Part shown: one piece after another, positions 1 to 34,662 of the stretch | Numbering within the stretch: the stretch's first letter is position 1 | Layout: the number at the start of each line of letters is the position of its first letter | From: Neobacillus driksii | GTDB lineage: Bacteria; Bacillota; Bacilli; Bacillales; Cytobacillaceae | Reading direction: 5' to 3' | Length of the DNA stretch: 64,000 nt | NCBI RefSeq assembly: GCF_013409995.1 | Contig: NZ_JACCBX010000005.1 | Location: 434,001-498,000 of the forward strand | The notes under the pieces: model-generated | Told to the model about the DNA's origin: nothing | The model's input: the letters and a program-made list of their open reading frames with translations, nothing else | Databases searched by the model: none | Program-made: the position numbers and the translations under genes

Positions 1-96
1 ACCCAGTTTACAGGTGTAATTAGTACTGTGTTTGGTATCTATTACATGTACAACTTAGGCATAACTGAAGGTTTATTTAAACTTTGGATCCAATAA
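1..96 (+). CDS. C-terminal end of an unidentified (probably membrane) protein, cut by the window edge
   Basis: Frame 1 is open from the first base to a TAA at 94-96 and gives 31 residues. They are hydrophobic and aromatic (a VFGIYYMYNLG stretch) and end in FKLWIQ, as the last membrane segment and short tail of a permease-like protein would. The stop is followed directly by a strong terminator hairpin, which supports this as a real gene end. Too little remains to name a family. Confidence 0.5.
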   Translation, partial: TQFTGVISTVFGIYYMYNLGITEGLFKLWIQ

Positions 97-97
97 A

Positions 98-136
98 AAA
101 ATATGGACCCCTATGATGGGGTCCATATTTTTTACT
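98..136. terminator. Bidirectional terminator
   Basis: Perfect 11-bp stem (101-111 with 118-128, loop TATGAT) flanked by A and T runs. It sits between the converging edge gene and the parR-like gene, whose stop codon lies in its T run, and can serve both. Confidence 0.85.
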
Positions 137-725
137 TATTCATACTGGCTAAAAATCCACCCAACAAGTCATCTAAATCAGGCTCTTCCTCTACCTTTTC
201 TTCTTGTATCAAAGGTTTGGCATTTTCCCAATCAAACTCATCTAAATCATCATCCATATCTGATAAATCAATAGAAGCAGCAATTTCCTCAACCGCACTA
301 TTGTTATCTGGATAGGAGCTGATTTCAGGTTTCTCAGGAAATACTTCTTCTTGCAGGTATAGAGCTTCATCAATATCGATTGATTTGCTATTTAAACTTG
401 CGAGGAGAGTGGTAGAACGAACCGGATCAGATATTAATTGATAGATAATACTGCCCAATAATGCCTCTGAATGCTCGTGCTTCAACCAGTCCCGCTGTGC
501 CTTTGTGAGCTTTTTCGGAAGCGGAACAGTAATGATCTCGCGCTCTCTTGCATTGACGTTACCGACACCTTCCATCACAAACTCAGCGATTTTGCTTGAA
601 AAATTTCTTCTTTCGGTATCCTTTAATTTTTGCAGTTGCTTAATTAAATGGTCAGGTGTGTCAGAAGGGACACGGAAGGAAATAGCCTGTCCCCGTTGAA
701 TTTCAGTTGAACCAGCCTTCTTCAT
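132..725 (-). CDS. ParR-like DNA-binding partner of the ParM-like actin
   Basis: This 197-residue protein is encoded 12 nt downstream of the ParM-like gene, so the two form one transcription unit. Residues about 15-60 look like a ribbon-helix-helix DNA-binding region: a short strand (ISFRVP) followed by two helices. The C-terminal third is strongly acidic and ends in a hydrophobic patch (DLDDLLGGFLASM). That layout, an N-terminal dimeric DNA binder with a C-terminal tail contacting the filament end, is known for ParR-type adaptors of type II partition systems. I infer that it binds the repeat region at 2053-2234, bridges it to filaments and represses the operon. Sequence similarity to a named ParR was not tested; position and architecture carry the call. 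Confidence 0.7.
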   Translation of the reverse strand: MKKAGSTEIQRGQAISFRVPSDTPDHLIKQLQKLKDTERRNFSSKIAEFVMEGVGNVNAREREIITVPLPKKLTKAQRDWLKHEHSEALLGSIIYQLISDPVRSTTLLASLNSKSIDIDEALYLQEEVFPEKPEISSYPDNNSAVEEIAASIDLSDMDDDLDEFDWENAKPLIQEEKVEEEPDLDDLLGGFLASMNK

Positions 726-737
726 ATCATCACCCTA

Positions 738-1931
738 TTAATTGGTAACAGGTTTTTTCGTTTGCGTTTGTTCAACTTTTTGTTTCTCTGCTTTTCTCGC
801 ATAATCCATAATGAGCTTGTAATAGGCATTTGCCATCATCCAAATACTCTCTTTTTCATCTTCAAAGAAGTCAATATTAAAGCCATCAAGATTATTATTT
901 AATGTTTTAAGATAATCCTTTAATACGGTTGCACCGCCGCCAACAAAGTAGCAAATTTCTGTTTGGGAGTTCTTTGACCAAACATTTCGCAATAAACGGT
1001 ATTGTTTCTTTGCCAAATCTAGCAGGATACGGTCTGTTATATCGTGAACACTAGTACGGCTTCCTTTAACCATGATATGATTTCGGTCGTTTTTCTTCGT
1101 GATGATTTCAACAACATCACGGCGGCTATCTAGTTCCACACCATGCTTTGTTCTAATTTCTTCACGGATTGCTTCCAATGATTCTGAAACCCCAAGATTA
1201 AAGCCTTGTGCTTTATCATCATCGACATTTCGATTTTTAATAACGGCGATATCCGTTGATAATCCTCCGATATCTTGAATCAAGATACGCTTATCAATTA
1301 AGTCCTTATTAATAATTTTTGAGTTATTATCCATAACAAGGTTAATGTAAGCCGCAAAGCCTTCAGGGTATACTTTTATTTCATCAAACTTAATGTTTAC
1401 TTTTAATCCTTGATATTTAGGTGTAACTAGAAACTCAACTTGGTGAACGGAACCGATTAACTTTGAACGGTAGCCTGCGTCCTTTCCTTCCTTAACTTCA
1501 CGAAGAGGGAGGCCCGTTCCAAGTGTGTAGTTCGCATCAATGACGTTTTTCGTTTGACGGAAATTATTCTTATTCCCTTCTTTTACCGCGTCTAATGCTA
1601 ATGTAGTAAAAAGTAGAACTAACGTTTGGTCTTCCTCAGACTTGCTGCTGCCAGGATCTAGTTCTGTTCCATTAGGACTTTTTGTTGCGAGATTACCAAC
1701 ACGGTAAATAGCATTATTATCCTTCAAAGCAGGGGAGTGGACTCTGACATGAATGCCATCAAGAGGATTTTTGTCATCTAATTCCTCAATTCCAATTACA
1801 GGGCGGTCCTCAGTATCTCTGGCAATAATATTTGGGATATTAAGTTCATATTCCATTTCTCCAAAAATCGCCTTAATCGAATCATTTCCAACATCAACGG
1901 CTGCAATTCTACTATTATTCAAAATTGTCAT
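738..1931 (-). CDS. ParM/StbA-like actin-family ATPase
   Basis: This 397-residue protein has the actin/Hsp70-fold nucleotide signatures: phosphate-1 AVDVGNDSIKA (about residues 11-21), phosphate-2 QDIGGLSTD (about 219-227) and adenosine motif FVGGGA (about 329-334). It has neither MreB nor FtsA features, and the family (ParM, AlfA and other Alps) is best known from plasmids, where filaments push DNA copies apart. It is followed by a ParR-like gene and preceded by about 190 bp of short repeats, the layout centromere-parM-parR. The start ATG at 1931 has an AAAGGATG-type site just upstream. The C-terminal tail (after about residue 375) is lysine/glutamine rich and probably disordered. Finding such a locus among chromosomal genes near oriC is the odd point. 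Confidence 0.88.
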   Translation of the reverse strand: MTILNNSRIAAVDVGNDSIKAIFGEMEYELNIPNIIARDTEDRPVIGIEELDDKNPLDGIHVRVHSPALKDNNAIYRVGNLATKSPNGTELDPGSSKSEEDQTLVLLFTTLALDAVKEGNKNNFRQTKNVIDANYTLGTGLPLREVKEGKDAGYRSKLIGSVHQVEFLVTPKYQGLKVNIKFDEIKVYPEGFAAYINLVMDNNSKIINKDLIDKRILIQDIGGLSTDIAVIKNRNVDDDKAQGFNLGVSESLEAIREEIRTKHGVELDSRRDVVEIITKKNDRNHIMVKGSRTSVHDITDRILLDLAKKQYRLLRNVWSKNSQTEICYFVGGGATVLKDYLKTLNNNLDGFNIDFFEDEKESIWMMANAYYKLIMDYARKAEKQKVEQTQTKKPVTN

Positions 1932-2052
1932 CCTTTCATTCTATTAATTAAGATGTTAATAAAGATATGTATCTAACTTCTCTAGTATAAGAGTATAGGA
2001 GATTGATAGATTCTTCAATCAGGAAGTTTAAAAGAAATGAAAGTGTAAAATT

Positions 2053-2234
2053 GTAAACATTACGTAATCGTTGTATACACTTTTCGTGTACAACGATTAC
2101 AAACCTGTATACATAGCGTCATATCAACATGTGTACTAATTTGTATACGTGTAAACATTTTTGTAAACACAATGTAAACAAGATCGTAAACATGTGTACA
2201 ATTCACGTAAACAGGTAAACACTTTTTGTAAACA
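2053..2234. repeat. Centromere-like (parC) iteron region upstream of the ParM-like gene
   Basis: Eight copies of GTAAACA (starts 2053, 2151, 2163, 2174, 2186, 2207, 2215, 2228) and three GTATAC elements crowd into about 180 bp. A perfect 12-bp inverted repeat lies at 2064-2075 and 2089-2100. The five central copies are spaced about 11-21 nt apart, near helical turns. The region begins about 120 bp upstream of the parM-like start. Type II partition loci carry the ParR-bound centromere and operon promoter in this position. Function is inferred; the repeats are directly visible. Confidence 0.7.
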
Positions 2235-2721: not shown

Positions 2722-2969
2722 TGATAAACCTTCCTCTCTATCTATATACCCTATACCTTAGCATAGCCGTTTTATCAGAGCATTATAATAGTATCTAGAA
2801 ACATCCTATAACTTCAGTCTATTAATCAAAAACTTTTATCACAAAAAAATGCTAGTAATTAGGAATTTCGCCTCCCTAAATATATAACAAAATAAGGTCT
2901 TTTATCCCTCTTATATATCTGACAATTCTGATATATTATAATTCTCAAATAATTTTAGGAGTGACGCTC

Positions 2970-4805
2970 ATGTTAAAAGTACTATCAAAAACCGGTCTAA
3001 CTCTAGCATTAGCTGGAAGTATTGTTGCAGCAGGCTTTCAACCTACTGAAGCTCCATCCGCAACAAACGGTACATACAATCTAAGTCCAGCTGATTTTGT
3101 TGGAGCTGCTCCAGAATTGGCAGCAAAGGCTAAAGAACTAGGTGTCGACTTATCAAAGGTTGACCCTGCTCAAAAGGCTAATATAGGGACCAAATTCCAG
3201 GAGCCTGGCGGCAACCACGTAACCAATAAGCCTGCTACAGGAGATGTACCTGTTTTAGTAATCCTGGCAAAATATAAGGATGGCGATGAGCCTGTTGGTG
3301 ACCTAAAAGGACAGGTTCCTGCTCATTACTATGAAGACTTAATTTTTGGTACAGAATATAATCCATATGGTTATGAAGCATTCAAACAATATGCTGAATA
3401 TAACGGAGTTAAGGCTCCAACAGATCGCACCATGCAAAATGCCTATAAAGAATCTAGTAATGGCAGAGTTAATTTAGTTCGCAAGGAAAACACTGAATTT
3501 GTATGGGTAGAACTTCCTAAAGGGGCTTCATATTATTTAGACCAAAAAGGAACTTATGCTGAGAATGGTAAATACGTACTAGGTAACGTAAACGGAGATG
3601 CTCATACTGGTGAATTCGTCCGTGATCTATTAAAAGCTGCAGACGCACAAGTAGATTTCTCAAAGTATGCTGAAAACGGCGAAGTTCCAAACGTTTTCGT
3701 TATTCACGAAGGAACAGGAGCTGAGTGGAGCCAAGACCCTGCACAATTCTGGTCCCACAAATGGAGTCTATTAAGTGCATTATACTATGGTAAATACTAT
3801 GAAACTGGTAAACCTGCAGATGTTCATTCTGGTATGAGTCAAAGTGCTTGGATCAATAAAACCGTAAAAGAAGATATGACATATGATGGTGTTATCGTTG
3901 ACAACTATAACATTCAGCCAGCTATTGGTGGAAACGTAGCAGGGTTCAATTTAACAACTGGAGGCTATGATGAAGCTTCTAAAACAGGTCCATATCCTGC
4001 ACAAGCTGGGGTATATGCTCATGAATTTGGCCATGCTTTAGGTTTACCAGATTTCTATGATACTGTATATACTTCTGAAGGTGTTGGAAACTACTCAATG
4101 ATGGCAGGCGGTTCATGGATGCGTTATCCAGACAATAACGCCTACTCTGGTAACTCACCTACTCACTTTGATCCATTCTCAAAAGTTTTCCTAGGATGGG
4201 CAGAGCCAAAAGAAGTTAAACCAACAGATGGAGTCAAAGAAATTACCTTACCACCTATTAATAAAGCCAGTGCTACAAATGGAATCGTAAAAATGGAGGT
4301 TCCAGGTTCTAACGGAACAGAGTATTTCTTATTCGAAAACGTACAGCAAGATGGATTTAATAAAGGCTTAATTCGCCAAGGTACAGATTCTCACGGATTA
4401 TTAGCATGGCATGTCGATGAAAACATCTTAAACTTATATCAAACTGCCGGCTTCCGTCCTAACAACGTTGAAAACTGGATGAACAAACGATTCCAGTTTA
4501 ATCAGTCACAAACAGCAAGTGACGGCACTGTTGTTACCCATTATGGTTTATCCCTACTTCAGGCCGATGGAAAATATGAATTAGAAAAGAACCTAAACCG
4601 CGGTAATGCTGGAGACTTCTTTAAGACAGGTGCAAAGATTACTCCAACCTCTTCTAATGTTCATACTGGTTCCTACTACTTCTGGAAAGGCTATAGCGCT
4701 ACTCCAGCAGACTCTGGAATTCATGTAACTGATATTAAAGAAAATGCTGACGGTTCTATCACTGCTAAGTTCTACTATAGCTTTAATGAAGCTACGCAAA
4801 AGTAA
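2970..4805 (+). CDS. Secreted M6-family (InhA-like) zinc metalloprotease
   Basis: A 611-residue exported protease. Residues 1 to about 30 are a signal peptide: K-rich start, hydrophobic core, AxA-like end near TEAPSA. The zinc motif HEFGHALGLPD at 351-361 fits the HExxHxxGxxD signature of M6 peptidases, in which two His and a third ligand hold zinc and Glu is the catalytic base. GNYSMMAGGSW after it resembles the Met-turn region. It is shorter than classical immune inhibitor A (about 780-800 residues) and lacks the C-terminal beta-sandwich seen in its neighbour. I chose ATG 2970 because AGGAG at 2957-2961 is 8 nt upstream; the GTG at 2961 overlaps that site. It ends at its own terminator. Likely role: extracellular protein degradation. 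Confidence 0.92.
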   Translation: MLKVLSKTGLTLALAGSIVAAGFQPTEAPSATNGTYNLSPADFVGAAPELAAKAKELGVDLSKVDPAQKANIGTKFQEPGGNHVTNKPATGDVPVLVILAKYKDGDEPVGDLKGQVPAHYYEDLIFGTEYNPYGYEAFKQYAEYNGVKAPTDRTMQNAYKESSNGRVNLVRKENTEFVWVELPKGASYYLDQKGTYAENGKYVLGNVNGDAHTGEFVRDLLKAADAQVDFSKYAENGEVPNVFVIHEGTGAEWSQDPAQFWSHKWSLLSALYYGKYYETGKPADVHSGMSQSAWINKTVKEDMTYDGVIVDNYNIQPAIGGNVAGFNLTTGGYDEASKTGPYPAQAGVYAHEFGHALGLPDFYDTVYTSEGVGNYSMMAGGSWMRYPDNNAYSGNSPTHFDPFSKVFLGWAEPKEVKPTDGVKEITLPPINKASATNGIVKMEVPGSNGTEYFLFENVQQDGFNKGLIRQGTDSHGLLAWHVDENILNLYQTAGFRPNNVENWMNKRFQFNQSQTASDGTVVTHYGLSLLQADGKYELEKNLNRGNAGDFFKTGAKITPTSSNVHTGSYYFWKGYSATPADSGIHVTDIKENADGSITAKFYYSFNEATQK

Positions 4806-4817
4806 TATTTTACAAAG

Positions 4818-4846
4818 ACCTGAGTTCAACTGGACTCAGGTTTTTT
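4818..4846 (+). terminator. Terminator of the first M6 protease gene
   Basis: Stem ACCTGAGT (4818-4825) with ACTCAGGT (4834-4841), followed by six T. Confidence 0.9.
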
Positions 4847-5129
4847 CCTTTTCTTATAGATGAACACCCCTTTATTTTAACTTTTTTGTAAAATACTCCA
4901 ACTATTCCTCGAAGGCTGTTGTCGTTTTTGGTAATATTACTTCTATTTTTGTAAGTAGTTATTTTAATATTTACAATATTCAATCAAAATTATATCATCA
5001 TATTACACTACTATATTCTTAGGGACTCGAACCATTTTAAGATTAGTAGATTCTTTTCTAATAAGGAGGGATTTGTACATAGTAGTAACTGTATTAAAAG
5101 GGGTAAAAACAAATAAAGGGAGGTTCTAT
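4847..5129 (+). promoter_or_regulatory. Intergenic region with candidate promoter of the inhA-like gene
   Basis: AT-rich gap between the two M6 genes. A sigma-A-like promoter is visible: TTTACA (4970-4975), 17-nt spacer, TATCAT (4993-4998). It would give a leader of about 120 nt before ATG 5130. No small gene or clear operator was seen. Confidence 0.45.
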
Positions 5130-7481
5130 ATGAAGAAGAGAAAAATACTATCCACTGCACTTACACTATCACTCGGTCTAGGATTGTTTAATGTGGCAGC
5201 AACCCCACTAAATGTAAAAGCAGTAGAAAAAGGTAGTAAATTTGGGGTAACAGCAGATTTAGCACTTGCAAATGATGAGAGATTAATAGAAATGCTGAAA
5301 CGTGAGGGAAAAATAGCAAAAAATGCTAGCCCTGCAGAGGCGGAAAAGGCATTAAAAGTCTATTTAAAAGCAAAGAGCCAATCAACTAAGACAAAAGATA
5401 AATTACCAAAGGCTATTGCAAATATAAAAGAAGATAACAATTCCATATCAAATGGTCTTAAGAATGGAAATGGAAATAAATTAGGACAAGCAAAGAAGGA
5501 CACTGTAGCTCCCGTACAAAAAGAAAACTATAACGGTGAAGTTCGTACAGATAAAGTTCTAGTTCTGGCAATAGACTTTCCTGATTATCGGACAGGCTCC
5601 ATCACTAAAGAAGAAACAGACATGTGGTATGAAGATTATCCAAAATCACACTTCCAGGATATGGTCTTTGGGGATAATGGCTATAAAGGTCCAGATGGAA
5701 AAACTTATGTTTCTATGAAGCAATACTATGAGCAGCAATCTGGCGGCAGTTACTCGGTTGAAGGTGAAATCGCAGGCTGGTACACTGCAGATCACCCAGC
5801 AAAATATTACGGTGAAAACGTTCCTGCTCCTGACGGTAATGATGCAGCAGCAAGAACACTAGTTTATGAAGCTCTTAAAAAAGCAGCAAAAGATCCTAAT
5901 GTGGATTTAAGTGAATATGATGCTTGGGATCGTGATGATTATGATGGAGACGGTGTATATGCTGAGCCAGACGGTTTAATTGACCACTTAATGGTTATCC
6001 ATGCAGGTGTAGGAGAAGAAGCAGGAGGAGGAAGCCTAGGTGGCGATGCCATTTGGTCACACAGATCTAAACTTTCGACAGGACCTGTTGCAGTACCTGG
6101 TGGATCATCTAACAGTGACCGTTTTGGCGGCCTTTTAGGTGCATGGGATTATACAATCGAGCCTGAAGATGGTGCTGCGGGTGTCTTTACACATGAATTT
6201 GGACATGACTTAGGTCTTCCAGATGAATATGATACCATTTACAGTGGGGCTGGAGAACCTGTAGAGTACTGGTCATTGATGTCAAGCGGAAGCTGGACAG
6301 GTGCTATTCCTGGTACAGAGCCACCTGGAATTAGCCCGTATTCAAGACAAATGCTTCAGGATCTACATGGAGGCAACTGGTTAAGTGGAACAACACTTAA
6401 TTCAACTGAAATCGATAAGAATGGTACAACTTTTCTTCTTGACGAAGCTGTAACAAAGGGCACAAATAACGACGCAGTTCGAGTTGATTTACCTGATAAG
6501 GAAACTGTGGTTAATACCCCTGCCAGTGGAAAAAATGAATATTACGGCGGCAAAGGTGATGAACTAGACAATTCGATGTCGACTACTGTCGATCTTACCA
6601 ATGCTACAAACGCAGTTCTAAACTTCAAAGCGTGGTACGATATTGAAACGGATTGGGATTATGCTTCTGTTCAAGTTAAGGAAGCTGGAAGTAATACCTG
6701 GACAGCTATTAAAGGAAACATCACCACAGATACTAATCCCAACAAGCAAAATCCTGGTAACGGTATTACTGGCTCATCCAATGGGTGGGTTGACGCTTCT
6801 TTCGACCTTTCTGCCTATACGGGTAAAAATATTGAATTAAGGCTTAATTACTGGACAGATGTAGCTGTTTCCTTAACCGGCTTCTATGTTGATGACATTT
6901 CCATTACTGTTGACGGCAGCAAAGTTTTAACTGACGATGCCGAAGGTTCGTCTAGTTTTAAATTGGACGGGTTTAAAACAGATCAAGGAAAGTTTTTCTC
7001 AAACCGTTACTATTTATTAGAATGGAGAACTCACAACGGAGTTGATATTGGATTAAAGAATATCCGCCGCGGTGCAAGCTTGATGTCTTATGATAAAGGC
7101 CTCGTAGTATGGTATGTAGATGAGTCCTATGGGGACGACAACTGGACTGGTATTCACCCTGGTGAAGGATTCTTAGGGGTAGTCGATGCAGACCAGCATA
7201 CAAATTACTGGAGTGATAAAGCGGTAGGTTCTACTCGATACCAAATGCATGACGCAGCATTTGGATTAAGTAAAACAGAGAAAATGTTCTTAAATTACCC
7301 AGGTCAATTTACAATGACTGACAACTTTACTCAACGTAACCCACTATTCGATGATAGTGCAAACTACTCCAATCCGGGTCTTGTTGACGCAGGACGTAAT
7401 GTCCCAAAATACGGTTTAAAATTCCGTGTCGTTGGTGAAAGCTCCGATGGTACTGTTGGTAAAGTATTAATCTTTAAATAA
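5130..7481 (+). CDS. inhA: Immune inhibitor A-type M6 metalloprotease
   Basis: A 783-residue secreted protease of full InhA length. A signal peptide (residues 1 to about 30, KKRK then a hydrophobic core) precedes a propeptide. The M6 catalytic domain carries HEFGHDLGLPD at 355-365 and an SLMSSGSW Met-turn-like segment. After it comes a beta-sandwich region (about 455-605, TVDLTNA..., FYVDDISITVDG) and a further C-terminal domain, as in InhA. Known InhA enzymes cleave host antibacterial peptides and matrix proteins and trim the spore surface or secreted proteins; the substrate here is unknown. ATG 5130 is chosen because GGGAGG lies 6 nt before it and the signal peptide starts there; an upstream TTG would add a non-signal stretch. 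A terminator follows at 7499. Confidence 0.94.
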   Translation: MKKRKILSTALTLSLGLGLFNVAATPLNVKAVEKGSKFGVTADLALANDERLIEMLKREGKIAKNASPAEAEKALKVYLKAKSQSTKTKDKLPKAIANIKEDNNSISNGLKNGNGNKLGQAKKDTVAPVQKENYNGEVRTDKVLVLAIDFPDYRTGSITKEETDMWYEDYPKSHFQDMVFGDNGYKGPDGKTYVSMKQYYEQQSGGSYSVEGEIAGWYTADHPAKYYGENVPAPDGNDAAARTLVYEALKKAAKDPNVDLSEYDAWDRDDYDGDGVYAEPDGLIDHLMVIHAGVGEEAGGGSLGGDAIWSHRSKLSTGPVAVPGGSSNSDRFGGLLGAWDYTIEPEDGAAGVFTHEFGHDLGLPDEYDTIYSGAGEPVEYWSLMSSGSWTGAIPGTEPPGISPYSRQMLQDLHGGNWLSGTTLNSTEIDKNGTTFLLDEAVTKGTNNDAVRVDLPDKETVVNTPASGKNEYYGGKGDELDNSMSTTVDLTNATNAVLNFKAWYDIETDWDYASVQVKEAGSNTWTAIKGNITTDTNPNKQNPGNGITGSSNGWVDASFDLSAYTGKNIELRLNYWTDVAVSLTGFYVDDISITVDGSKVLTDDAEGSSSFKLDGFKTDQGKFFSNRYYLLEWRTHNGVDIGLKNIRRGASLMSYDKGLVVWYVDESYGDDNWTGIHPGEGFLGVVDADQHTNYWSDKAVGSTRYQMHDAAFGLSKTEKMFLNYPGQFTMTDNFTQRNPLFDDSANYSNPGLVDAGRNVPKYGLKFRVVGESSDGTVGKVLIFK

Positions 7482-7498
7482 AATTAAATATCTACTTT

Positions 7499-7532
7499 TG
7501 GTGACTCCGGTGCTTGCCGGAGTCACTTTTAT
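7499..7532 (+). terminator. Terminator of inhA-like gene
   Basis: Stem GTGACTCCGG/CCGGAGTCAC followed by TTTT. Confidence 0.85.
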
Positions 7533-7541
7533 AATAAAAAA

Positions 7542-7577
7542 ACCGAATAACGACTATTTTAAGTCATTATCCGGTCT
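7542..7577 (-). terminator. Terminator of the minus-strand metalloprotease gene
   Basis: On the minus strand ACCGGATAATGAC pairs with GTCGTTATTCGGT around an 8-nt loop and is followed by seven T. It faces the inhA terminator, so the two protease genes converge. Confidence 0.85.
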
Positions 7578-7583
7578 TAATTC

Positions 7584-9716
7584 TTACTTCTTCTTTCCAG
7601 TTTTCTCTTTCAAATGTACTTCATAAGAAAAATCAACTGGATTTTTATCATCGGCAGGAGCCGCGTAAGATGTAATCATATAGTTCTTTCCATCTTTGAA
7701 TAACTGTCTTAGAGTTAGTGCATCCTCTTCTGTAACATTGAATGGATCTACTGTGATTACCTTGTAATTCGTTTTTGCACCCTTTTTATTACCAACTTCC
7801 TTCTCGTTTATAAATGTTACAGTGTAGTTTACATATTGACCAGCTAGTTCTTGGAACGATTTGAAGCTGTCTGTAGAGCTTCCATCGTTGCTATAACCGA
7901 TTTCTGGAATTGCAATATCATCTACATACCATCCAGCTTGAGTTGTACCCCAGTCAGTTAAGTAACGGAATGAAACTAATACTTTTTGACCTGCATATTG
8001 ACTTAAATCAAAGCTTTCTTCCTGCCAGTTGTCATATGTTCCTGTAAATCCAGGTACGTTATCTTTAATTTTTGGATAGCCTTCTTCAACAACATCACTG
8101 CGTGTATTTTCATTTTCTAAGCTATTCCAAGTCTCTCCACCATCAGTTGAAACTTGAACCATTCCGAAATCCCATTGCTCTTCGATATCAATTAAGTTAT
8201 CAAACTTCAATGTTGCACTTTTAACACCAGTAAGATCGGCTTCGAAGATTAAAGCATTATCAGCTTCGTCTCCCTGTCCACCCCATAATACTTTATTTGC
8301 AGCATTTTTAGGATCTGTCACAGATGTCCATGGAGTTCCTAAGAAATCCACACCATCAAAAGAAATACTTCTAATTTTATCTTGGAAATCTAACTCTTTA
8401 AAGTCACCACCCCAAGCTGGTACCCCTTCTTTTTCAAATGTAACAGCTTTTTCAAAGTCAACAGTCTTGCCACGCTTTGCACCTGTTGTAGCATTTACAA
8501 CTACATCACGAAGGTCAATACTGTCAAAATTATAGATTCCATTACCAACTCGATCAGTATCTAGTGTTAAGGCAGTAATAAAGTTTTGATAAAGTTGCGT
8601 AAAGTCAAGGCTAGAACCATGTGCCTTTAATACATCGTTTACACTGTTCATCCCTTGTGTTTCACTTAGCGCTAAGTCACGAATAAACTCTCGACCAAAT
8701 TTGTCATTCATATATAAGGTAAATAGGTAAACTTGACCATAATCTGCAATTGTTTCTGGACCAGTTTTTGCTCCTTGGTGTTCATCCCAATTCACTAGTG
8801 AGTTCTCAGGATGATCTAAGTAAAAGTTAATAGAGCTGTCGTCATGTCCATATCCACCAAGATATTCAGAGAAAGTAGACATACCCTCATTTAACCAAGT
8901 TTCTTCCGCACCATCATTGTCAGCATGAATTAAATGTTGTAACTCATGAATGGTTGTACCGAAGAAGGTAGACTCTAAACGAGTTTCCCAGCTGTTTGTA
9001 TCGATTGTAATGATATTTCTATCAATATAGTTTTCTAGTGTTTGCCAGAAGAAACCAGCAACAAAGAATGGATAAGCAGGGTTGTTATAGTTATCATCCT
9101 GAATATTATCTACTAACATGATAACCTTGTCGCTTCCCTCATAATATCCCACAGGAACATTTTTACCTGCCAATGGAGATTTTGACCCATCATGAACATC
9201 CGGTGTTCCAAAGAACGCTGTCGCTTTCGGGTAAATATTATTATCAAATTCATCACGTAGTTTATCTACTTGTGCTTGTGTTACCACATGAGCTGGGCGC
9301 GGATCACCCGGTTTAAATGAGAGGTCATTAGCCACCCAGATTTCAACATTTTCTCCCACACTACGTAATGTAAATGGTTTGAATTTTAACCCTCTATTTA
9401 AGAATTGTTTGGTTCCCCCATCATATGTAAAACTGCTAGTTGATGCAGCACTTTCTGATGATTGATTTTCATTAAAATTAATCTTCGCAGCTTGCTCAGC
9501 AATCTTCGCTTCTGCCTGCTTTAAGTATGAAGAATCTTTACTTAGTAGATTTAGTTGACCATCAATATCCACTCGATCCCCATAACGCTCTACATCCCAT
9601 TTTGCCGTTGTAGAAGTAGCAGCTTCTGCTTTTGAATGATTAGCTGATAACGGAGCAAAAAGTGATAGCGCTAATGCACCAGTTGCTAGAATTGATAATA
9701 ACTTTTTCTTTTTCAA
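7584..9716 (-). CDS. Secreted HExxH+E metalloprotease with InhA-like C-terminal domain
   Basis: A 710-residue exported protein. The TTG at 9716 is preferred: GGGAGG lies 9 nt upstream and translation from it gives a clean signal peptide (KKKK, hydrophobic core, AEAA). An earlier in-frame ATG at 9851 would add 45 residues of non-signal sequence. The catalytic signature is HELQH (257-261) with a glutamate in LNEG (277) as probable third zinc ligand, the gluzincin pattern, unlike the HExxHxxGxxD of the two neighbours. After the catalytic part a beta-sandwich (about 480-640, with WDFGMVQVSTDGGETW and GWYVDDIAIPE) closely resembles the equivalent InhA region, so this enzyme shares its accessory domain. 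The exact peptidase family (M30-like is possible) was not established. It converges with inhA. Confidence 0.85.
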   Translation of the reverse strand: MKKKKLLSILATGALALSLFAPLSANHSKAEAATSTTAKWDVERYGDRVDIDGQLNLLSKDSSYLKQAEAKIAEQAAKINFNENQSSESAASTSSFTYDGGTKQFLNRGLKFKPFTLRSVGENVEIWVANDLSFKPGDPRPAHVVTQAQVDKLRDEFDNNIYPKATAFFGTPDVHDGSKSPLAGKNVPVGYYEGSDKVIMLVDNIQDDNYNNPAYPFFVAGFFWQTLENYIDRNIITIDTNSWETRLESTFFGTTIHELQHLIHADNDGAEETWLNEGMSTFSEYLGGYGHDDSSINFYLDHPENSLVNWDEHQGAKTGPETIADYGQVYLFTLYMNDKFGREFIRDLALSETQGMNSVNDVLKAHGSSLDFTQLYQNFITALTLDTDRVGNGIYNFDSIDLRDVVVNATTGAKRGKTVDFEKAVTFEKEGVPAWGGDFKELDFQDKIRSISFDGVDFLGTPWTSVTDPKNAANKVLWGGQGDEADNALIFEADLTGVKSATLKFDNLIDIEEQWDFGMVQVSTDGGETWNSLENENTRSDVVEEGYPKIKDNVPGFTGTYDNWQEESFDLSQYAGQKVLVSFRYLTDWGTTQAGWYVDDIAIPEIGYSNDGSSTDSFKSFQELAGQYVNYTVTFINEKEVGNKKGAKTNYKVITVDPFNVTEEDALTLRQLFKDGKNYMITSYAAPADDKNPVDFSYEVHLKEKTGKKK

Positions 9717-9997
9717 CTTCTGGTTCCTCCCTTTTATCTCTATATGTTTTCGAAATAATAGTAACATAATGAATTTTTGGAATATATGGTTAATTAGATA
9801 CAAACGCCTATTCCTAAAGTTCCAATTTTTGTATGATTCTTCATGTTCCAATTTCCCTAAAAAACGTGATATTTATATCATTATTTCTCCTACAAAAGGA
9901 CCAAACCTTAATATTGATATTATTTCCCGGAAATAACTCATAGTTTACTTTTTAGCAGTACACCCTAAGAAAAAGTATGTAAACAGGAGGAAGAAAT

Positions 9998-30402: not shown

Positions 30403-30573
30403 CCTATACTCACGTCCTATTAGCCTTTTATTATACGATTATACTTAAGATTTTTGGAAACGTCATCCATTTTGGGGTTTATCCTATTGGGAATAGAATT
30501 TTTTTAAAAAAAGAGATTAAAAGACCATCTTTTAAACTGTAGAGAAGTATGATAAGATAAAAATAATAAAAAA

Positions 30574-30645
30574 GACCATGTGTAACTGGCGAAACGCGGA
30601 TAACCGCGAGGGAGCACATGGTGTCGCAGCCGTTCGCCTGGGCAG
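30574..30645 (+). ncRNA. ZTP (pfl) riboswitch upstream of serA
   Basis: The leader contains the conserved ZTP elements: P1 arms ACCATGTG (30575-30582) and CACATGGT (30615-30622), AACTGGCG just inside, a hairpin CGCGG-ATAA-CCGCG (30595-30608), GGGAGC, and the 3' pseudoknot domain GCCG...CGCCTGGGCA (30629-30644). It senses the purine-pathway alarmone ZTP/ZMP, which rises when 10-formyl-THF is short, and turns genes on. Control of serA, the source of serine for one-carbon units, fits. Confidence 0.9.
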
Positions 30646-30678
30646 AGGTAAGGGATATTATCCCTTACCTCTTTCTGT
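30644..30678 (+). terminator. Riboswitch expression-platform terminator
   Basis: Perfect 12-bp stem AGAGGTAAGGGA (30644-30655)/TCCCTTACCTCT (30661-30672), followed by TTCTGTTT, directly abutting the aptamer pseudoknot, so ligand binding can compete with it. Confidence 0.85.
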
Positions 30679-34480: not shown

Positions 34481-34662
34481 AAATGAGATAGCACAACTCA
34501 ATAAACCGGAGAGTTTATTGAGACAGTCCTGCAGCTCTTAACTACAGACCCAGCATGTAATACAGAGAATATTACAAACTTCGGCGACATTTCCTTCTCC
34601 TTAGCATCATTGCTTCTCAAACTCCACTAAAGACTGTTAAATATCGCGCCTCTACCTCACTG
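34481..34662 (-). ncRNA. Lysine riboswitch (L box)
   Basis: Read on the minus strand the region carries the L-box core in order: GAGGTAGAGGCGCGA (34644-34658), an AGAAGCAA/AAGGAGAAGG segment, TGCCGAAG-like GTCGCCGAAG, GCTGGGTCTGTAGTTAAGA, a CTGCAGGACTGTC element, and the P1 closing arm CTATCTCATT (34482-34491). A terminator follows. Lysine binding would stabilise the aptamer and let the terminator form, shutting off uptake. An extra upstream hairpin (ACCTCACTTTTTTTGTCAGTGAGGT, in two arms) overlaps the 5' P1 strand. Confidence 0.93.

Follow-up and report, generated by a model that had tools for sequence, protein, structure and literature searches.

An origin-linked parM-parR cassette with a putative centromere on the chromosomes of many Bacillales

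The window analyzed here is a stretch of 64,000 nucleotides from Neobacillus driksii (contig NZ_JACCBX010000005.1, positions 434,001 to 498,000). Near its left end lie a parM-like gene, a parR-like gene directly behind it, and an array of short repeats upstream of parM (Table 1). The earlier note had recognized actin signatures in the first of these genes, and the Pfam scan bears this out. The product scores 130.6 bits (5.5e-38; cut-off, 22) against Alp7A_like_C, the C-terminal domain model of the Alp7A family, is above the cut-offs of MreB-like_C and ALP_N, and lies slightly below that of ParM_N. The DVGN, QDIGGLSTD, and GGG segments are unchanged across 38 ParM sequences, neighbors of the I228 type excepted, and the protein is predicted to be an actin-family ATPase with intact nucleotide-site motifs. 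With an AlphaFold model of middling quality (pLDDT, 68; pTM, 0.69), the top eight matches in the PDB were BtParM (five entries), Dh-cParM1, Alp7A, and pSK41 ParM, with TM-scores of about 0.5 and E values as low as 1.3e-18 for matches to ParMs. Also listed was entry 4a62, in which ParM is bound to a ParR C-terminal peptide, and an entry titled as a CorM/CorR filament of Anabaena ranked ninth. The protein stays far below the NCBI equivalog PRK13917, "plasmid segregation protein ParM" (28.1 bits versus 417 required), and below the FcmB equivalog (26.3 bits versus 300 required). No match to StbA_N (PF06406) was found in the N. driksii genome or in any control genome; this search is uninformative because the controls were also without a match.

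Table 1. Cassette genes and associated sequence features, in window coordinates
Feature	Position	Strand	Basis
Perfect 16-bp inverted repeat, terminator-like, between the plus-strand neighbor and parR	96..133		Repeat search
parR-like gene, 197 aa	132..725	-	Directly 3' of parM (12 bp); alignment; N-terminal match to plasmid genes that follow parM
parM-like gene, Alp7A/ParM-type actin family, 397 aa	738..1931	-	Pfam, fold matches, dN/dS
Promoter-like element TTGAAG, 17 bp, TACTCT	1990..2018	-	By eye from consensus and sequence
Putative centromere (parC), 14 sites GTAAAC/GTATAC/GTGTAC, last site ending at 2233	2053..2234		Site count
Inverted repeat in the array, two 15-nt arms, 93% complementary	2064-2078/2086-2100		Repeat search

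A parR-like gene stands directly behind parM in each of the 161 loci (132 distinct), L079, L089, and L171 included, where the genes are intact. Alignment of the products reveals a conserved N-terminal part (approximately residues 10 to 125), a variable acidic linker, and a conserved C-terminal motif with the consensus LLGDFLxxMNK, which is retained while the linker diverges. Conserved ends joined by a variable linker are to be expected of a protein that contacts the array through its first part and the end of a filament through its last. The window protein has no Pfam match, and its N-terminal part matches the gene that follows parM on plasmids with up to 98 bits. Its AlphaFold model is weak (pLDDT, 66.6), too weak for naming a fold, and found no fold match in the PDB. 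In the sequence, AISFRVP may form a strand and precedes two helices (residues 25 to 37 and 42 to 51 in the model), an arrangement for which a ribbon-helix-helix domain is plausible.

The eight GTAAACA and three GTATAC copies that the earlier note had counted upstream of parM are exact. When GTGTAC is included, the 14 array-type sites between 2053 and 2233 compare with about 1 per kb in the remaining window. Steps between sites are 8 to 13 bp in the dense half of the array and 12 to 24 bp elsewhere; across loci the preferred steps are 8, 11 to 12, and approximately 20 to 24 bp, the consensus of the parC family is TGTWTACA, and the median extent is about 120 to 285 bp upstream of the parM start codon. 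In 81 loci, the 400 bp upstream of parM contain a mean of 12.2 array sites versus 0.96 in dinucleotide shuffles, and at least five sites are present in 80 of them. The remaining locus (L099, Cytobacillus citreus) has parM and parR and a single array site in the 400 bp, its array being either degenerate or composed of another site type; four further entries of the 161, from three genomes, have just five sites. A relaxed three-site pattern matched the 6.5-Mb N. driksii genome only at the window array and at one tandem repeat on another contig (C2). A stricter pattern was searched in 35 genomes and matched in 13, at parM in 11 and only elsewhere in 2 (G286 and G360); the pattern being strict, 22 genomes were without a match, and a backward control matched once (G071). 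These features are those of a candidate iteron centromere beside the parM-parR genes. Dense TGTATACA clusters distant from parM were seen at G286:C1:3426054 and G360:C1:2796748.

A TTGAAG-17-TACnCT element is kept between the array and parM in the consensus of 132 upstream regions, as judged by eye. The array lies upstream of this promoter-like element and not on it and so does not resemble a plain operator. The inverted repeat that had been reported in the array is present, with arms of 15 nt instead of 12 bp. By eye, it also occurs in Neobacillus niacini (L033) and is absent from eight other relatives; since only the window and this locus have it among the ten sequences compared, it is not the conserved part of the array. 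An 81-aa open reading frame without a Pfam or NCBIfam match lies just past the array on the minus strand (2260 to 2505).

The cassette is chromosomal and not carried by a plasmid. Its contig comprises 520,927 bases of the 6.5-Mb genome and includes dnaA at 511,435, which places parM 75.5 kb from dnaA on the same contig and agrees with the earlier description of the locus as near oriC. Genes of the ParB, ParA, and Noc types adjoin dnaA on this contig; the ParB-type gene also resembles Noc, yet below the Noc cut-off, and we take it to be Spo0J. The window also carries genes for a WalK-type kinase, YycH, a response regulator, purA, a DnaB-type helicase, a GdpP-type protein, rpsF, and ychF; we take this set to be the left arm of a Bacillus origin. 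The claim that replication and mobility genes are lacking nearby held for the 40 window open reading frames scanned with Pfam (10 at E 1e-3 and 30 at E 1e-10), none of which had an integrase or transposase domain or a replication domain of plasmid or phage type.

A match to the window ParM was present in 122 of 151 genomes of the GTDB family, 115 of which have a close copy (81 to 100% identity) and seven distant copies only. Of 397 genomes across the order, 201 matched at E <1e-60, each of them at 2e-200 or better; these represent 55 of 135 genera. A class-wide draw of 299 genomes, which shares some genomes with the family and order samples, gave 28 matches, 20 at 78 to 100% identity and 8 at 38 to 44%, so that a gap separates the close class of ParMs from the distant ones. 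Alp7A_like_C had no match in Bacillus subtilis or in 13 other control genomes. Because the cassette is missing from about half of the order sample and from the B. subtilis control, chromosome segregation as such does not depend on it. Among the best 80 of 429 loci, some record titles of which appear misnamed, the close relatives belong to Neobacillus, Mesobacillus, Cytobacillus, Robertmurraya, Lederbergia, Fredinandcohnia, Metabacillus, and Sutcliffiella. The top match with a species name was Neobacillus niacini, at 99%. Close relatives also occur in Peribacillus and, among the best 120 listed, in Halobacillus, Virgibacillus, Oceanobacillus, Lentibacillus, Pontibacillus, and Thalassobacillus. 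Nearly all ParM matches listed have open frames, and the few stops that were flagged fall in matches extending to the frame's very end. Second-class ParM copies (38 to 43% identity) were seen on chromosome-sized contigs at G326:C1:2349381, G695:C1:3423411, G732:C1:2090384, and G748:C1:2623278, the first of them far from dnaA.

The distance to the origin was assessed in genomes chosen for few contigs and for having parM and dnaA on one contig. In all 38 such genomes from across the order, dnaA has parM on its left at 34 to 287 kb (median, 92 kb), and the two genes are on opposite strands. In the family of N. driksii the same arrangement, at 38 to 300 kb, is found in 33 of 34, four of the 38 genomes searched for dnaA being without the gene and left out. 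Taken together, 71 of the 72 few-contig genomes share this arrangement, with distances of 34 to 300 kb. In the single exception (G020), a 5.28-Mb single contig, parM is far from dnaA in the contig as assembled, at C1:641490-642632, and a member of the same genus (G053) has the normal arrangement at 77 kb. Within up to 10 kb on each side of parM in the 80 named loci, parR adjoins parM in all 80 and the next most common gene family is present in 26; since no other neighbor exceeds this number, the cassette is kept as a unit. The search that the earlier note had proposed, for the replicon type and neighborhood of this clade, found it to be order-wide, chromosomal, and origin-linked, with distant relatives (≤44% identity) on plasmids. 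The position supports a function directed at the origin and does not prove it, because slow change of gene order could by itself retain a core gene there.

In comparisons of the window with nine related loci, dN/dS was 0.02 to 0.04 for parM and 0.05 to 0.08 for parR, two of the nine parR values being saturated. ParM is under strong purifying selection, and selection, suggested earlier from preserved frames and repeats, acts on the cassette as a whole. In 38 of 38 genomes, ParM shared more identity with the window protein than was seen for Spo0J (means of 82 versus 68%), so that ParM is the more conserved of the two. Spo0J was present in all 79 genomes surveyed, 39 with parM and 40 without, which rules out a replacement of ParABS by the cassette. 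RacA-like genes were found in 28 of 39 genomes with parM and in 24 of 40 without (p=0.34), giving no sign of a replacement of RacA; all RacA-like matches, those of B. subtilis and N. driksii included, were below the family cut-off. As Spo0J and RacA-like genes are about as frequent with parM as without it, the cassette is best seen as an addition to the known machinery.

The best match to the window ParM among 72,556 plasmid records was 44% identical. Among 50,697 phage records there were just 2 partial matches, at 25%, and a phage origin was rejected; one PHROG "partition protein" family matches ParM. Eleven plasmid cassettes have the gene order of the window, and in 8 of them the N-terminal part of the second gene is homologous to that of ParR (E <1e-15). 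Several carry GTATAC or GCATAC repeats upstream; overall, the repeats are fewer, lie near the start codon, and are partly of another type. The ParR tails seen are also different. In a tree, the chromosomal ParMs are split from the others by one branch and have short branches among themselves. The support for this split is 74/83, which does not reach the starred level, and the tool flagged the plasmid branches as long; with such support and such branches, a single origin of the chromosomal ParMs is likely and not firm. A plasmid origin deep in the past is likely. The simplest history, not firmly shown, would be one ancient capture of a plasmid-type system followed by vertical descent with losses. 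The suggestion that an integrated plasmid had left its partition module behind is contradicted as a recent event: the gene pair is order-wide and origin-linked and under strong purifying selection, plasmid relatives do not exceed 44% identity, and replication and mobility genes are lacking among the 40 open reading frames scanned.

Among the nearest known systems is Alp7A/Alp7R/alp7C of Bacillus plasmid pLS20. Together with plasmid ParMs such as that of pBM69, it shares with the window type the Alp7A_like_C domain and, as judged from the 11 plasmid cassettes, the gene order. It differs in sequence (≤44% identity to the window ParM), and the window type is chromosomal, with a longer ParR and another C-terminal motif; its array of about 12 sites is separate from the promoter, where plasmid cassettes have a few sites near the start codon. 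The ParABS system of the same chromosome (Soj/Spo0J/parS) is likewise an origin-proximal centromere system, with a ParA-type ATPase instead of an actin. In the passages covered of Ali et al. 2025 (PMC12270681), chromosomal ParMs are described from Desulfitobacterium and Clostridium botulinum, chromosomal ParM genes are called occasional, Bt-cParM of Bacillus tropicus is reported to be conserved on several Bacillus chromosomes, and ParCMR is stated to have yet to be implicated in chromosome segregation. These cParMR systems resemble that of the window in combining ParM, ParR, and a putative parC on a chromosome that also has ParABS; Dh-cParM1 is among the best fold matches of the window ParM, whereas the sequences are barely alike (E 0.17). 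In the text of that paper, oriC appears only in the reference list and dnaA is absent, and origin linkage is undiscussed in the passages covered. If Bt-cParM1 or Bt-cParM2 belongs to the clade described here, part of its distribution is already in print. The survey of actin-like proteins that Derman and co-workers published in 2009 may list some of these genes as well. In the open-access literature searched, no ParMRC was described that is linked to the origin across the order Bacillales.

The earlier reading of a complete type II partition cassette stands at the level of sequence for its three parts, the actin gene, the adjacent parR-like gene, and the upstream array. That of an actin system besides ParABS is likewise supported by conservation, position, the preserved putative centromere, and the ParA- and ParB-type genes of the genome, from which a role in segregation is predicted. 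We hypothesize that these loci represent an origin-linked, actin-type ParMRC of many Bacillales that moves or positions the origin beside ParABS; this is the best explanation of the data and, on balance, the probable one. ParR would bind the TGTWTACA array upstream of parM, as suggested by the co-conservation of the two. In plasmid R1, the C-terminal part of ParR binds the end of the ParM filament, and by analogy the ParR-array complex may display the conserved C-terminal motif of ParR many times over, and this motif would bind the filament end. Nucleotide-driven polymerization of ParM could then push apart, pull, or anchor the replicated origin regions in parallel with Soj/Spo0J. A wider statement could go either way: in roughly half of the Bacillales, a dedicated actin spindle acting on a single centromere near the origin would segregate or position the chromosome in addition to ParABS, with B. 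subtilis, the basis of the textbook picture, lacking it.

It is conceivable that the cassette has been repurposed as a DNA-independent cytoskeleton whose filaments shape the cell, the array merely controlling expression. FcmBC of filamentous cyanobacteria such as Nostoc offers the precedent: as reported (PMC12645912), it is a chromosomal ParM-type actin of plasmid partition origin with an adjacent ParR-type partner, FcmB is required for rod shape, and mutants show no obvious nucleoid change. The window ParM touches the FcmB model weakly, far under its cut-off, and the CorM/CorR filament stands among its fold matches. However, the N-terminal part of ParR and an array of about 12 sites are conserved across genera, the array lies upstream of the conserved promoter-like element and not on it, and the locus stays in the origin region; because a system for shape only needs none of these, we consider this explanation unlikely. 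It is also possible to envisage that the cassette acts on DNA for a purpose other than vegetative segregation, such as holding the origin at the pole during sporulation or positioning the replication machinery. Many Bacillales are spore formers, and this possibility would fit the origin linkage, the hosts, and the RacA-like gene of the genome, which is below the family cut-off as in B. subtilis. Against it, the promoter-like element looks vegetative and not of a sporulation type, as judged by eye, and the nearly equal frequency of RacA-like genes with and without parM reveals no replacement, so we regard it as improbable.

Two further explanations start from the relationship to plasmids. The chromosomal copy might aid or disturb incoming plasmids with similar centromeres, since plasmids of related hosts carry ParM relatives (≤44%), several with GTATAC or GCATAC repeats upstream. 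Those repeats are fewer and partly different, though, in the 11 plasmid cassettes, where the ParR tails seen also differ, and a guest-directed device leaves the origin linkage and the strong conservation unexplained, also in genomes in which a single ParM was found; we judge it very unlikely. That the cassette is the decaying remnant of an integrated plasmid draws on the same homology to plasmid systems and is barely credible, given the dN/dS of parM, the constant position in 71 of 72 genomes, and the frames open in nearly all matches listed.

For the question whether an actin-type ParMRC ever segregates a bacterial chromosome, this clade provides a strong sequence case and makes the question directly testable: the cassette is old, strongly selected, and found near oriC across many families with an intact putative centromere. 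Its hosts include the culturable Neobacillus niacini, Halobacillus halophilus, and Peribacillus simplex. The data suggest that many relatives of Bacillus have a second segregation device on the chromosome that is absent from the model species B. subtilis and that the database name "plasmid segregation protein ParM," which some genes of the clade bear, is misleading.

Other features of the window were recorded in passing. Beside the cassette, three M6/InhA-type metallopeptidase open reading frames follow in succession (2961 to 9851): one is shorter, one is a full InhA-type protein, and one, on the opposite strand, has only the InhA MAM part above the cut-off. A ZMP/ZTP riboswitch (30572 to 30650) lies ahead of a 2-hydroxyacid dehydrogenase gene, and a lysine riboswitch (34481 to 34662) precedes an ABC transporter operon with a family-3 binding protein.
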